A stretch of 16,697 nucleotides of DNA from Candidatus Heimdallarchaeota archaeon (lineage in GTDB: Archaea; Asgardarchaeota; Heimdallarchaeia; Heimdallarchaeales; Heimdallarchaeaceae). Position numbers and translations under genes: made by a program. Location of the stretch: contig DAOVRE010000006.1 of assembly GCA_030628305.1 (NCBI GenBank), positions 1 to 16,697 of the forward strand. Reading direction: 5' to 3'. Of the stretch, positions 2,352 to 16,697 are shown piece after piece. Each line of letters starts with the position of its first letter. The first letter of the stretch is position 1. A model generated the notes under the pieces. That model was not told the origin of the DNA. It searched no databases and worked only from the letters and a program-made list of their open reading frames with translations.

Positions 2352-3371
2352 ATGGATAAAAACAGACTTCTAGAAGCCGAAATTGTATCTGGAAAAAGAA
2401 ACCCTTCAGTTTATTCAAGTTTATCTGAAGGCATGAGTTATTATGAAATTAAAAAGCAAACTGAATTAGCTGTTGATGTTGATAATATGCCAGCTATTCA
2501 AGGCCTAGCTATTTCAAATAAATTCGCTGTTGCGGAAGCGTTAAACTCTAAGAAAGGTTATACGCTTGTTTCAAGAAGAGCATCTAAAGGCGACAGTAGT
2601 GCTCCTGAATTATTTTTTATGTTAAGGTCAGCTTTAGACGATAGAACGAGACCAATTTTTCGTCGGTTAGCAAGAAAAGTTATTTTAACAACCGCTTTTG
2701 GCGTTACAAGCCAAGGGATCAGGGGAGAAGTTTTTGAACAAACTGAATATGAGCCAGGTATAGATGAATTTGATATCGATGAAACGTTAGAAAGATTTCT
2801 GGAAAATAGAAGTAGAATCTTGAATACTGAAGACATTGTTAGTCTTGAGAGAAAGGAAAAACAAAAGACCGCAGTATTGATGTTTGATACTTCTGGTTCA
2901 TTGTATGGTGAACGATTCACAACAGCAGCTTTGACAGTTGCTGTGATGGCATACAACTTAGCACGAGATAATTTCAGCGTTGTAGTATTCAATACAAAGG
3001 CATATACTATCAAACGTATAAAAGAAAGGGTTAAGACAGACGAGCTAATTAATCGGATCCTTGAGAGCGATAGTGCAGGATATACTAATATTTCTGAAGG
3101 GTTGAAATATGGTGGTCTAGAACTCGAAAAAATCAAAAAGAGAAACAAATTTGGTGTTCTTGTTACCGATGGAGCTTTCAATAGAGGAGGCGACCCCCGA
3201 CCTTATCTAAAATATTTCCCTAAGCTTCATGTTTTAGCATTACCAAGTAAGCAAGATTGGGGAAGAAGAGTGTGTAAAGATCTTGCTAGACTCGGCAAAG
3301 GAAAGTTCTCAGAGGTTAACAGTTACAAGCAAATTCCTCGTATTCTCATGCGACTCCTTAGAGAGACTTAG
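2352..3371 (+). CDS. VWA-domain protein, partner of the MoxR ATPase
   Basis: The protein is 339 residues with a von Willebrand factor A domain in its C-terminal half. The metal-ion-dependent adhesion site is complete: DTSGS at residues 179-183, Thr at about 245 in GYTNISEGL, and Asp at about 273 in VTDGAFN. The N-terminal half (1-165) is a family-specific helical region that I do not recognise in detail. MoxR plus VWA pairs are a known two-component chaperone arrangement in which the VWA protein presents or selects the client. The ATG at 2352 is preceded by GAGG only 4 bases away. The same frame is open upstream to about 2265 and looks coding from 2289, yet it contains no ATG, GTG or TTG there, so the true N-terminus may be longer or supplied by frameshifting from MoxR. 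Confidence 0.85.
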   Translation: MDKNRLLEAEIVSGKRNPSVYSSLSEGMSYYEIKKQTELAVDVDNMPAIQGLAISNKFAVAEALNSKKGYTLVSRRASKGDSSAPELFFMLRSALDDRTRPIFRRLARKVILTTAFGVTSQGIRGEVFEQTEYEPGIDEFDIDETLERFLENRSRILNTEDIVSLERKEKQKTAVLMFDTSGSLYGERFTTAALTVAVMAYNLARDNFSVVVFNTKAYTIKRIKERVKTDELINRILESDSAGYTNISEGLKYGGLELEKIKKRNKFGVLVTDGAFNRGGDPRPYLKYFPKLHVLALPSKQDWGRRVCKDLARLGKGKFSEVNSYKQIPRILMRLLRET

Positions 3372-13196: not shown

Positions 13197-14420
13197 TTAT
13201 ATTTCTTCTATATCAAAGATTTTTGACAATCTAAAGTCACTATCTAGTACTTCCCTTACCTGTTTGGATGAAACAGTTAGATGTATCCTTTTAGAGCGAC
13301 CATAACGTCCTTTGCTAATGACTTGAGCTGTAACAATTCCAAGCATATCTAACTCATTAATCAAATCTCCTACTCTTCTTGCTGTTAATTTATCTAATCT
13401 GACTAGCTTACAAATTTTATTGTAAATTTCGTAAACATCTCCTGTGGTGATTTCATCATTCTTTCCTTCACCGAGATAGATTGCCTGTAAAACTGCTTTT
13501 GTTTGAATTGGTAAAGATGTTAAAACCTCAACAACGGTGTTTCTTTCTATTACTTGTTGAGCTTTGCGTACATGAATTTCAGTAATCTTTTCTTCACCAT
13601 TACGCTCAACAAGTTCAGCTGCTACACGTAATAGATCAAGAGATCTTCGAGCATCTCCATGCTGCTGGGCTCCTATGGCCGAGCATAGATTAATTACTCC
13701 AAAATCAAGAACATCTTTGTGAAATGCTATTTTAGCCCTTTGTGTAAGAATATCACGCAACTGTTCTGCGGTATAGGGAGAAAAAACAATTTCCTCTTCG
13801 CTCAAACTACTTCTGATTCTTGGATCTAATACTTCCTTGAAGTTTACATCATTGGTGATGCCTATAATGCTGAGTTTTGAGAAATCTAAATCACTGTTCA
13901 TACGTGTTAAAATGTACAATGATTCAGTACTCTTTTTGTAAAGCATATCAACTTCATCAAGAACAGCAACATGAAGAGTATGAAGTTCGTCTAAAGCATC
14001 TCTAAACTTCTGATAGATGATATCAAAGTGCAAACCTGTAAAAGGAACATTAATTCCAACATCTTCACATAATTGTGTCAAAACACGATATTTTGTATCC
14101 ACGTGCTGACAATTCATATAACTGTATTTAAAAGATAAATTCCTTGAATCTGCTGTTGATTTTAATTTTGACAAGACTTGTTTAGTTACAGCTGTTTTCC
14201 CTGTTCCTGTTGTACCATAGATGAATATGTTAGAAGGTGTGCCACCTTTTAGAGAGGGGGCAAGAATTTTTGCTAACTCTTCAAACTTTTCGCCTCTATG
14301 AGGGAGAATATCAGGAACATGATGAGGACTAAGTACCTCTCTATTGGCAAATATGTTTGCGTCAGCATCCAGATATCTATCAAATATATCATCTATGCTA
14401 TCTGATGATTTTTCATCCAT
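13197..14420 (-). CDS. orc1: Orc1/Cdc6 replication initiator
   Basis: This 407-residue protein is an archaeal origin-binding initiator combining ORC and Cdc6 roles. The AAA+ domain has Walker A YGTTGTGKTA (68-77), Walker B VAVLDEVDML (151-160), sensor 1 GITND (187-191) and the arginine-finger and initiator-specific region VLDPRIRSSL (197-206). The C-terminal winged-helix domain (about 315-400) includes LTARRVGDLINELDMLGIVT, which in known structures contacts the origin box. The start is the ATG at 14420; there is no clear Shine-Dalgarno. A convincing origin recognition box lies about 1.2 kb upstream of the start (15618-15638), the usual arrangement of initiator genes beside the origin they serve. 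The 115-base gap to the winged-helix gene upstream holds no ORB-like sequence. Confidence 0.95.
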   Translation of the reverse strand: MDEKSSDSIDDIFDRYLDADANIFANREVLSPHHVPDILPHRGEKFEELAKILAPSLKGGTPSNIFIYGTTGTGKTAVTKQVLSKLKSTADSRNLSFKYSYMNCQHVDTKYRVLTQLCEDVGINVPFTGLHFDIIYQKFRDALDELHTLHVAVLDEVDMLYKKSTESLYILTRMNSDLDFSKLSIIGITNDVNFKEVLDPRIRSSLSEEEIVFSPYTAEQLRDILTQRAKIAFHKDVLDFGVINLCSAIGAQQHGDARRSLDLLRVAAELVERNGEEKITEIHVRKAQQVIERNTVVEVLTSLPIQTKAVLQAIYLGEGKNDEITTGDVYEIYNKICKLVRLDKLTARRVGDLINELDMLGIVTAQVISKGRYGRSKRIHLTVSSKQVREVLDSDFRLSKIFDIEEI

Positions 14421-14535: not shown

Positions 14536-14850
14536 TCACGCTAATTTGAACAAAACCTTAGGTCTACCTCTTGTAGAGCGGGGGACAGATTCTTTTTTGA
14601 TGACGCCTTTGTTTATGAGTTTTGCCAAGTTATCATATAGAGTAGATCTAGGTATGTGTGTCATAGAGACAATTTGTCCTCTTGTAAGAGGGCCATTATC
14701 TGCAATAAGACTAATAAGAAGATTTTCTAATTCGATTTCATAATCAGTCTCATCAGAGTAAACATATACTCTTCTACTACTTATTACAACCCCTTGAATC
14801 TGTGATTTTTTGCTAATTTTCTTTGTCAATAGGTTCTTACTATGGGCCAT
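14536..14850 (-). CDS. Small winged-helix DNA-binding protein
   Basis: The protein is 104 residues. After a basic N-terminal tail (MAHSKNLLTKKISKKSQ) and a short beta segment, residues about 42-104 form a winged helix-turn-helix: LLISLIADNGPLTRGQIVSM, then the recognition helix HIPRSTLYDNLAKLINKGVI, and the wing SVPRSTRGRPKVLFKL. It would act as a transcription regulator or chromatin-associated factor. GAGTGATAAC just before the ATG at 14850 resembles the GGTGA-type ribosome binding sites used elsewhere in the window. It is on the same strand as orc1, 115 bases upstream, so control of orc1 or co-transcription with it is plausible but unproven. Confidence 0.85.
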   Translation of the reverse strand: MAHSKNLLTKKISKKSQIQGVVISSRRVYVYSDETDYEIELENLLISLIADNGPLTRGQIVSMTHIPRSTLYDNLAKLINKGVIKKESVPRSTRGRPKVLFKLA

Positions 14851-14982: not shown

Positions 14983-15330
14983 ATGGCAGTTAATAAAATA
15001 AACAATCTTAGAATTGATATATTAAATGCTATTAATGAAATCGAAAATCGTCTAGAGTTACTAGGAAGAAATGATACAATATTCGGTTTTGTTAGCTCGA
15101 AATACATCAAATGCGGAAAAGTAAATTGTAAGTGTGAACGGGGAGGACAATATATGCATGGACCTTACTACTATCTGCGAATGGAGCCTGAATACAAATA
15201 TAGTAGATATTTAGGTAAGAAGATACCATCAGCAATAACAGAAGGTATTGATATTGGAAAAAAGATCAAAAACTTAAGTGGAAAAAAGAAGAAACTATTA
15301 GAAGCGCTTGAAAACCTGGAAAATATCTGA
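14983..15330 (+). CDS. DUF6788-like small protein
   Basis: The 115-residue protein has a helical N-terminus (about 1-30) and then a compact core: FGFVSSKYIKCGKVNCKCER (about 34-53) followed by HGPYYYLRM and YSRYLGKKIP. The pattern of a Cys-Gly-Lys, Cys-x-Cys and HGPYYY is what I recall of the DUF6788 group, whose role is unknown; the cysteines at 43, 48 and 50 could bind zinc. A Lys-rich helix ends the protein. TATATATA lies at 14965-14972, rather close to the ATG at 14983, so the exact start of transcription is unclear. A T run follows the stop. It lies between the winged-helix/orc1 pair and the candidate origin. Confidence 0.7.
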   Translation: MAVNKINNLRIDILNAINEIENRLELLGRNDTIFGFVSSKYIKCGKVNCKCERGGQYMHGPYYYLRMEPEYKYSRYLGKKIPSAITEGIDIGKKIKNLSGKKKKLLEALENLENI

Positions 15331-15483
15331 CTTTTTTAAATACTAATTTCTTTAATATACTGATAAGCATTGCAAAATGTAATACGTAATAAATACAGCA
15401 TACACAATGAACACACCACTTCACACAGCATGAAAATTGGGCTAAAGACCACCTAATATGCACAGCTGTATGTAACAATTCTT

Positions 15484-15748
15484 TTGTGAATGGATGTGGG
15501 GATTCCGTTCACCCGTTTTTGAAAAGCTTGTGAACAGAAGATATCATCCGGCAAAAAAAGTAATGTGTTAATTCATGTGCTCAACATAAAAAATATTATT
15601 GTGAACAAAAAATCAAGACCCCTTCATTTCCACTGCAACTCGGTGTGTAACCCAAGAATCTGGTGTTCACAAGGTGTGAAACGTCTTAAACTGTAAATAA
15701 CTAAACAATCAGCCCATTATGCTACATTTCCTTTGGAGACATTCACAA
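15484..15748. repeat. Cluster of TTGTGAACA repeats in the origin region
   Basis: Exact copies are at 15528-15536 (plus), 15599-15607 (plus) and 15664-15672 (complement, TGTTCACAA). Partial copies are TTGTGAA at 15484-15490, GTTCAC at 15507-15512 and TTCACAA at 15742-15748, with TTCACA also at 15420-15425. Exact copies start 71 and 65 bases apart, roughly regular. They may be binding sites for the initiator or for another origin protein, or operators for the flanking genes. Confidence 0.7.
15618..15638 (-). other. Origin recognition box (ORB)
   Basis: Read on the minus strand, this contains GCAGTGGAAATGAAGGGGT. It matches the archaeal ORB pattern CAGTGGAAA followed after a few bases by a G-string (AAGGGG), the element bound by Orc1/Cdc6 in Sulfolobus, Aeropyrum and Pyrococcus. 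A weaker relative on the plus strand at 15484-15500 (TTGTGAATGGATGTGGGG) would point its G-string toward the same AT-rich centre, and AGGTGTGAAACG at 15672-15683 resembles a mini-ORB. Confidence 0.75.
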
Positions 15749-15921
15749 AAGAGGAGAAAAATCGGAAAAAAGAAAGCAATTATTGAAGAAGAAAAGAAGA
15801 TTGTAAAAGAACTTTAACTAAACAGTAGACTTAGGAGAATAGTTAAATAATTCCGTAAAAGAGGAGATTTAGCATAGAAGATGTTAAATTGTTTAATGTC
15901 ATGGAGTAGCAGGGTGAGATA

Positions 15922-16697
15922 ATGGTTAATTTTGATATAAAACTTTTAGAAGAATTATCTAATGAATTTGGTCCTAGTGGATTCGAATGGGAAGTTCAAA
16001 AGAAATTAAAGGAATATGTGAAAACTTATGCTGATCGGATACTACAAGATAGAACAGGTACACTGATTTTCACAGCGGATGGAGATGGAAACGGTCCAAA
16101 AATAATGATTGCAGGTCACGTTGATGAAATAGGGTTTCAAGTAGAAGCAATAACTAAGGAAGGTTATCTAAAGTTTCATCAATTAGGAGGATGGTGGGAT
16201 CAAACATTACTGTCACAGAGAGTGGTAATTAGAACAGTTGAAGGGGAAATGATACCAGGAATAATTGCTGCAAAACCACCACATGTAATTGAACCTGAAG
16301 AAAGGTCTAAGGTAGTTAAAAAAGATAAAATGTTCATAGATATAGGATGTTCGAACAAAGAAGAAGCAAAAGAGTTGGGGATAAGAATAGGAGATCCAAT
16401 AGCACCACATTCAATCTTTGAAATATGGGAAAGACCTAGAATAGTAGAAGGGAAAGATGGAAAATAAGATGAAAAAAGTACAGTAAAATTAGCTGTAGGG
16501 AAAGCTTTCGATGATAGAGTAGGAGCAGTAATAATTGCGGAGATAGTAAAGAAAATAAAAAAGGAGGGTATTAAACATCCAAACGTTATATATGGGGCAG
16601 CAACAAAACAAGAAGAAGTAGGGTTAAGAGGAGCAAGAACAGCAGCACAGATGTTAAAACCAGATATAGGGATAGCACTAGAAGTAGATATAGCAGG
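15922..16697 (+). pseudogene. M42-family aminopeptidase, interrupted by an in-frame TAA (runs off window)
   Basis: The first 181 codons give an M42 (glutamyl aminopeptidase/tetrahedral peptidase) N-terminus: LSNEFGPSGFEWEVQKKLKE, then IAGHVDEIGF with metal ligands His 66 and Asp 68, then the internal PDZ-like domain. A TAA at 16465-16467 stops the frame, but the same frame continues with GKAFDDRVGA (about 16501-16530), TKQEEVGLRGA with the catalytic Glu pair (16612-16617) and ALEVDIA up to the window edge, all conserved M42 motifs. No in-frame ATG, GTG or TTG follows the stop until 16648, so a split second protein is unlikely. The truncated product would lack most of the active site. The alternatives are a nonsense mutation, a sequence error or read-through. 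GGTGA four bases before ATG 15922 is a good ribosome binding site. Confidence 0.75.

Follow-up and report, generated by a model that had tools for sequence, protein, structure and literature searches.

We analyzed a 16,697 bp stretch of DNA from a Candidatus Heimdallarchaeota archaeon (hereafter the window), and its intergenic region at 15331-15921 is probably part of a chromosomal replication origin. The reading we favor, and regard as likely, is that this region constitutes one cis-acting module of a bipartite Orc1-1 chromosomal origin, with an array of TGTGAA sites that is probably bound by a second protein. An Orc1-1 ortholog, an origin recognition box (ORB) plus array at 20/20 loci, mobility independent of the neighboring genes, and a GC skew change in the complete genome of PR6 (G023; CP084167.1) all supported an origin. 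The initial annotation had called the region a chromosomal replication origin, which is still the best-supported reading, but it had the anatomy wrong, as there is one ORB and no AT-rich core between two ORBs. Because the region lacks such a core between inverted ORBs, we classified it as a module and not as a complete classical oriC.

Like Pyrococcus oriC, Sulfolobus oriC1, and haloarchaeal oriC1, the region is non-coding, contains an ORB with dyad half and G-string, and has an Orc1-1 gene nearby. It also shares with ORB/Orc1-type archaeal oriC a divergent ORB pair around an AT-rich core, here as a neighboring module. Unlike in those origins, one strong ORB lies inside a TGTGAA array, the window has no AT-rich core, the family of the window (f1, the Heimdallarchaeum family) has its core 2-6 kb apart from the ORB and array, and the host is an Asgard archaeon. 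Accessory repeats beside ORBs are also described for Haloarcula hispanica oriC1/oriC2, where they tune initiation (PMC4010727); those are G-rich inverted repeats with a downstream ORB cluster, whereas here the motif differs, the array lies on both sides of one ORB, and the system is known from sequence alone. In the portions of the literature available to us, we found no account of an Asgard chromosomal origin that resolves its sequence elements.

Anatomy of the intergenic region

The 17-bp ORB core CAGTGGAAANGAAGGGG was matched exactly on the minus strand at 15619-15635, the sole match in the window at up to three mismatches (0.10 expected; at this loose setting 20/200 shuffles had at least one match). 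An ORB matrix of 23 positions, whose training set included the window ORB itself, scored 35.0 bits at 15617-15639, and the next best place in the intergenic region scored 4.4 bits. The near-consensus ORB previously noted on the minus strand at ~15618-15636 was therefore borne out, and the region has the dyad half plus G-string of ORB-type archaeal origins. By the same matrix scan, this was the only ORB in 15331-15921. A degenerate ORB had also been proposed on the plus strand at 15484-15500, but we rejected it as a second ORB at -4.5 bits; the position is instead a TTGTGAAYR site of the array (site F), so that of the supposed inverted pair flanking a core only one ORB was present.

The AT-rich core ascribed to the non-coding region did not hold up either, since GC was 0.333 for 15331-15921 vs 0.337 for the window. 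Local values were 0.28 at 15531-15610, 0.23 at 15331-15410, and 0.25 at 15771-15850. The least stable 50-mers of the window fell outside the intergenic region, where the least stable 50-mer, at 15334 beside the DUF6788 gene, was at the 98.8th percentile. GC, stability, and the single ORB thus led us to reject the idea that ORBs flank an AT-rich core in this region. A core of this kind between inverted ORBs was found in a second module outside the window, at 13/13 f1 loci with flank.

Five TTGTGAAYR sites, all of those in the 16.7-kb window, spanned 15484-15748, with three on the plus strand left of the ORB and two on the minus strand right of it, facing the ORB from both sides. None of 1000 dinucleotide shuffles reached five sites in 270 bp (maximum 2); as we defined the motif with the sequence already in view, the weight of this result rests on relatives. 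The array consensus TGTGAA(C/T) has neither the GG nor the G-string of the ORB, although TGTGAA could conceivably be an ORB variant. The ORB-like dyad beside site A scored 2.7 bits in the window and 21-22 bits in L029 and L006, which are two copies of one genome (G004).

Table 1. Features of the orc1-1 locus and intergenic region in window coordinates, with the loci of an ORB-like site in f6.
Feature	Position	Strand	Description
orc1-1 (Orc1/Cdc6 initiator)	13197-14420	minus	407 aa; Pfam Cdc6_C, Cdc6_lid
HTH gene	14536-14850	minus	104-aa winged-helix protein, TrmB/MarR-like
DUF6788 small protein	14983-15330	plus	stays with HTH and orc1
Element H	15378-15408	unstranded	TGTAATACGTAATAAATACAGCATACACA on plus; among longest conserved blocks
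Array site G	15420-15425	plus	TTCACA
Array site F	15484-15492	plus	TTGTGAATG
Array site E	15528-15536	plus	TTGTGAACA; GTTCAC at 15507-15512 makes a spaced dyad
Element D	15548-15559	minus	TTTTTTTGCCGG; relatives read ATTTTTGTCG
Array site C	15599-15607	plus	TTGTGAACA
ORB	15617-15639	minus	GTTGCAGTGGAAATGAAGGGGTC; dyad half + G-string
Array site B	15666-15680	unstranded	palindrome TTCACA-NNN-TGTGAA, TTCACAAGGTGTGAA on plus
ORB-like dyad without G-string	15724-15739	minus	TCTCCAAAGGAAATG, directly after site A on the minus strand
Array site A	15740-15748	minus	TTGTGAATG, TGTGAAY
GTTCCA(C/G)TGGAAATnAAGGGGAG loci	L318, L319, L321-L325, L327		f6

Conservation of the ORB and array

ORB plus array were present in 20/23 f1 genomes, which are 20/20 of those with an assembled locus. 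The remaining three (G006, G010, G013) had only Orc1 paralogs of at most 28% identity, indicating that the orc1-1 locus is not assembled there. The window and each of the 20 genomes had an ORB and 6-9 TGTGAA/TTCACA sites (the two palindrome halves counted singly) inside 330 bp. An alignment of 21 rows including the window, in which rows L021 and L010 are the same genome, resolved conserved blocks A to H and the ORB with variable sequence between them. Within genus g1 of f1, array spacing was nearly fixed across ~360 bp, with site C at +34 relative to the ORB start and site E at +105/106 relative to the ORB, each in 18/18 g1 genomes listed. The GTATTACA core of element H was +247 to +283 from the ORB in 20/20 f1 genomes listed, and element D had no match in PR6.

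The composite pattern of palindrome and ORB, TTCACANNNTGTGAA-N(15-45)-GTGGAAA, occurred once each in 16/227 Asgard genomes, all of g1. The other 211 did not match, among them PR6 and G022 at the N(15-45) spacing, and a reversed-pattern control had no matches. A search of 27 genomes for the palindrome alone gave 24 places, including 17 at the ORB (reversed control, 7 places). It occurred at the ORB locus in 17/18 f1 genomes asked (exception G022) and was the sole genomic copy in 13 genomes. Complete PR6 (3.33 Mb), whose locus was seen before the palindrome pattern was fixed, had a single copy, no more than 100 bp from the ORB. Across the 1.2 Mb of PR6 sampled, TGTGAAY sites were densest at the ORB locus, with 7 in 350 bp vs at most 3 elsewhere. 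For the ORB itself, a loose search at 2 mismatches matched 48/56 genomes with a reversed control about as frequent, so we used exact matches alone: there was one each in 10/56 genomes, 8 in f1 and 2 in f6.

ORB plus array also occurred in two more families of the class, f5 and f6. An ORB of at least 17 bits lay upstream in 6/8 f5 orc1-1 loci, and in each of those six the strongest ORB had 5-8 copies of TGTGAA within 300 bp (P 6e-5 to 2e-9). The other two, G038 and G044, had no ORB of 17 bits on contigs that end within 3-6 kb. Twelve f6 loci were picked by ORB pattern with TGTGAA disregarded, and 4/12, one each in G043, G045, G050, and G052, had 5-10 copies of TGTGAA within 300 bp (P 2e-5 to 3e-12). 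The f6 locus L316 had a ATTTTTGTCGG element, the motif of element D, beside its ORB. The stretches searched from f2, f3, and f7 yielded no ORB of 17 bits.

The remaining 8/12 f6 ORB matches were of GTTCCA(C/G)TGGAAATnAAGGGGAG type without an array, and this second conserved ORB-like site was present once per genome in 8/9 f6 genomes. Separately, an Odinarchaeia record (L043 8220-8660) carried two strong ORBs separated by 417 bp upstream of orc1, together with a 35% identical HTH homolog, and is a further Asgard origin candidate.

A divergent ORB pair and the position of the locus on the chromosome

The matrix scan found a divergent ORB-like pair 152-159 bp apart in 13/13 f1 loci with enough flank. 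Core GC was 0.18-0.23, and pairs were aligned from five loci. The pair was 2.2-4.5 kb from the block of ORB and array in g1 and g2 and 6 kb from it in PR6, where the pair sits between homologs of the two genes flanking it in L021. In the 1.2 Mb of PR6 sampled there was one divergent pair of at least 28 bits at 148-162 bp, the one 6 kb from the block, with the 28-bit cut-off set after this pair was known. Homology would place the pair belonging to the window past its right end. Other families varied in arrangement. All 3/3 f4 genomes (L243 and L041 counted as one genome, G026) had a pair immediately upstream of orc1, its members separated by 166-170 bp and accompanied by 0-1 TGTGAA within 300 bp, and f5 had a pair in 3/6 loci, 243-245 bp apart. 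The four array-bearing f6 loci had a divergent pair 157-161 bp apart, located 163-173 bp from the main ORB (start to start). Also near the f4 pair, a different repeat, TGTAGTGTAAC and near variants, occurred on both strands (L089 7150-7400, L041 9550-9790); it may correspond in f4 to the TGTGAA array.

The modules are adjacent in the compact f6 arrangement, and we therefore read the two as one origin. Orc1-1 would bind the single strong ORB, as family knowledge and the ortholog suggest, and a second DNA-binding protein, most likely the nearby winged-helix protein, would occupy the TGTGAA(C/T) sites. Array and ORB, at nearly fixed distances over ~360 bp, would then build a defined nucleoprotein complex. 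Unwinding and MCM loading would most likely occur at, or jointly with, the second module, the divergent ORB pair ~157 bp apart with its AT-rich core, 2.2-6 kb away in f1 and ~0.17 kb away in f6. We infer this division of labor between the two modules from their observed anatomy.

The strongest competing explanation, which we consider rather improbable, is that the origin consists of the divergent pair only and that the window ORB and array form a regulatory site titrating or reloading Orc1-1, for which bacterial datA and DARS provide a model. The pair with its AT-rich core has the canonical anatomy and was present in 3/3 f4 genomes examined, all without the array, and the 2.2-6 kb between modules in f1 would suit a separate regulatory site. 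A regulatory ORB cluster has likewise been described downstream at Haloarcula oriC2 (PMC4010727). The 163-173 bp between adjacent modules in four f6 genomes fits one functional unit instead, and in f1 the window-type ORB outscored the pair members (30-42 vs 11-27 bits), albeit with a matrix trained on window-type ORBs.

The GC skew check proposed in the initial annotation gave a change near the locus in PR6, the one single-contig genome of the family, within ~0.17 Mb, but flat profiles in G053 and draft contigs. Using 60 stretches covering 36% of the PR6 genome, the lowest cumulative raw skew was at 2.25 Mb with close values over 2.12-2.28 Mb; it formed no clean V and tracked gene strand (correlation 0.72). 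A strand-corrected two-segment model placed a break between stretches centered at 2,145 and 2,165 kb, a precision that owes partly to denser sampling there. The PR6 ORB is at 2.1615 Mb, and the candidate origin coordinates are 2,155.4 and 2,161.5 kb. The log-likelihood gain was 77.0 and 0/300 permutations were as large, with the largest, 71.5, not far below. Thinning to one stretch per 50 kb moved the break to 1.99-2.05 Mb in three phases (0.12-0.17 Mb from the ORB), and leaving out stretches within 60 kb of the ORB moved it to 2.25-2.28 Mb, with 0-2/300 permutations as large in these subsets. The other break coincided with the contig ends or fell close to them, by the start of the deposited sequence, so the arms are unequal (~1.2 and 2.2 Mb). 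Counting against an origin here, the skew was flat in G053, an f5 genome in one contig with a listed completeness of 70% (24/200 permutations as strong), and there was no skew step at the ORB in draft contigs G012:C12 (7 stretches) and G002:C14 (9), nor a step in G007:C95 (2).

A site for chromosome segregation (centromere or parS-like) near the origin, with the ORB merely a neighbor, is an unlikely account of the array. Repeated sites with nearly fixed spacing at one locus near the skew change would suit it, as segregation sites are often near origins. The ORB lies within the array in three families, however, and none of the 12 window proteins scanned with Pfam matched a ParA/SegA-like family.

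Also against our reading, published complete genomes of Heimdallarchaeia, Lokiarchaeia, and Odinarchaeia were taken to suggest no bidirectional replication; bidirectional replication was inferred from skew for Freyarchaeia and Atabeyarchaeia (PMC11291895). The accessible text of the PR6 genome paper does not contain oriC, GC skew, or Orc1, and its one "origin of replication" is that of a mobile element (PMC8813620).

Orc1-1, the winged-helix protein, and the gene neighborhood

Orc1-1. The window Orc1 was 99% identical to that of the Heimdallarchaeota record HM4_B41, and its best PDB matches were 2qby_A (E 1e-110) and 2v1u_A; from the organisms of these structures, we take it to be closest to the Sulfolobus Orc1-1 type. 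Pfam and alignment to both structures identified AAA+, lid, and winged-helix domains with the GRYG wing, and the alignments covered the GRYG(K/R) segment that marks ORB binders. Genomes contained 2-4 Orc1/Cdc6 genes (14 genomes), so other origins may exist. We found no ORB or array at other orc1 paralogs in six 3.2-kb loci (L114-L119) or two 20-kb PR6 stretches (L166, L153), and rejected origins there for the stretches examined.

Winged-helix protein. The leading candidate to bind the TGTGAA array is the 104-aa winged-helix protein (HTH). Its NCBIfam matches (TrmB/MarR/Lrs14-like) were far below cut-off; its recognition-helix region and RGRPK wing were nearly invariant in nine f1 sequences, and a protein search returned 29 homologs, all at least 50% identical. 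The gene adjoins orc1 in f1. A homolog was present in 7/8 f5 orc1-1 stretches examined, and in G036, G040, G051, G054, and G055 (f5) the ORB and array lie between two divergent homologs (in G054 at C1:2716760-2718813). All 9/9 f6 genomes had a homolog 39-48% identical, found neither in the orc1-1 stretches examined nor within 1.5 kb of an ORB of at least 16 bits. The three f4 genomes gave one weak match (G026, E 5e-4), and matches were none or weak in f2, f3 (E 5e-4 and 9e-4), and f7 (G056, E 5e-8). Array and HTH homolog thus co-occur in f1, f5, and f6, and f4 has no array and an absent or weakly matched homolog; over four lineages only, this is correlation and not proof.

For WhiP of Sulfolobus oriC3, also a winged-helix protein, a role at an archaeal origin has been proposed. 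The window protein may be comparable as a candidate winged-helix origin factor but differs in being a single-domain TrmB/MarR/Lrs14-like protein of 104 aa. We tentatively extend our reading to several Heimdallarchaeia families, which might use a two-factor, two-module origin combining Orc1-1/ORB and a dedicated winged-helix protein/TGTGAA array with a movable AT-rich ORB-pair module. If true, the origin recognition complex in relatives of the eukaryotic host lineage would include a second subunit with sequence specificity of its own. The locus offers a precise, conserved candidate with complete-genome coordinates and a named candidate for the second origin-binding protein, and makes directly testable how relatives of eukaryotes choose replication start sites.

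Gene neighborhood. By Pfam, the window encodes an AAA/MoxR-type ATPase, an Lsm-like protein, ribosomal S10, an EF-2-like GTPase, an amidohydrolase, Orc1/Cdc6, the small winged-helix protein, DUF6788, and the start of an M42 peptidase; we also take 2-499 to be PolD DP2 and 2352-3371 a VWA protein. The initial annotation noted an orc1 gene ~1 kb away. The ORB is 1.2 kb upstream of the orc1-1 start, and two small genes that went unmentioned, HTH and DUF6788, lie between them. The cognate orc1/cdc6 gene is thus close by, at 1.2 kb in the window and ~10 kb in PR6. Gene order in annotated g1 and g2 loci was M42, block, DUF6788, HTH, orc1, with no M42 homolog matched in L022. The ORB-array block was inverted in place in L036 (g2). 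In complete PR6, of another genus, the block had moved ~10 kb, to between an Lsm-like gene and a large ORF taken for polD DP2, and HTH, orc1, and DUF6788 remained together. Four f6 genomes had the ORB block on a different contig from the HTH homolog and the best Orc1-1 match. The block therefore lacks the fixed position relative to a regulated gene start expected of an operator region, and with its inversion in L036 and relocation in PR6 it is not a neighbor's promoter.

These positions make ordinary transcriptional control of orc1, DUF6788, or M42, in which the winged-helix regulator would have its operators here and Orc1 a site for autoregulation, very improbable: an HTH gene at most 0.7 kb away and the two divergent HTH genes around the ORB in five f5 genomes would fit it, but the region receives the 3' end of DUF6788, HTH and orc1 are transcribed away from it, the PR6 block is 10 kb off next to other genes, the L036 block is inverted, and the block of four f6 genomes is not on the contig of the HTH homolog or best Orc1-1 match.

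Two other window ORFs were unusual. The M42 ORF (15922-16697) stops at 16467 after 181 aa, compared with 378 aa in the L021 relative, and is probably a frameshift, an assembly error, or a broken gene. The ORF at 551-1207 on the plus strand, beside the putative polD DP2 start, had no Pfam match at 0.001 and carries a VVGIDPGETIGFAVI stretch that, in our estimation, recalls the RuvC/RNase H fold.
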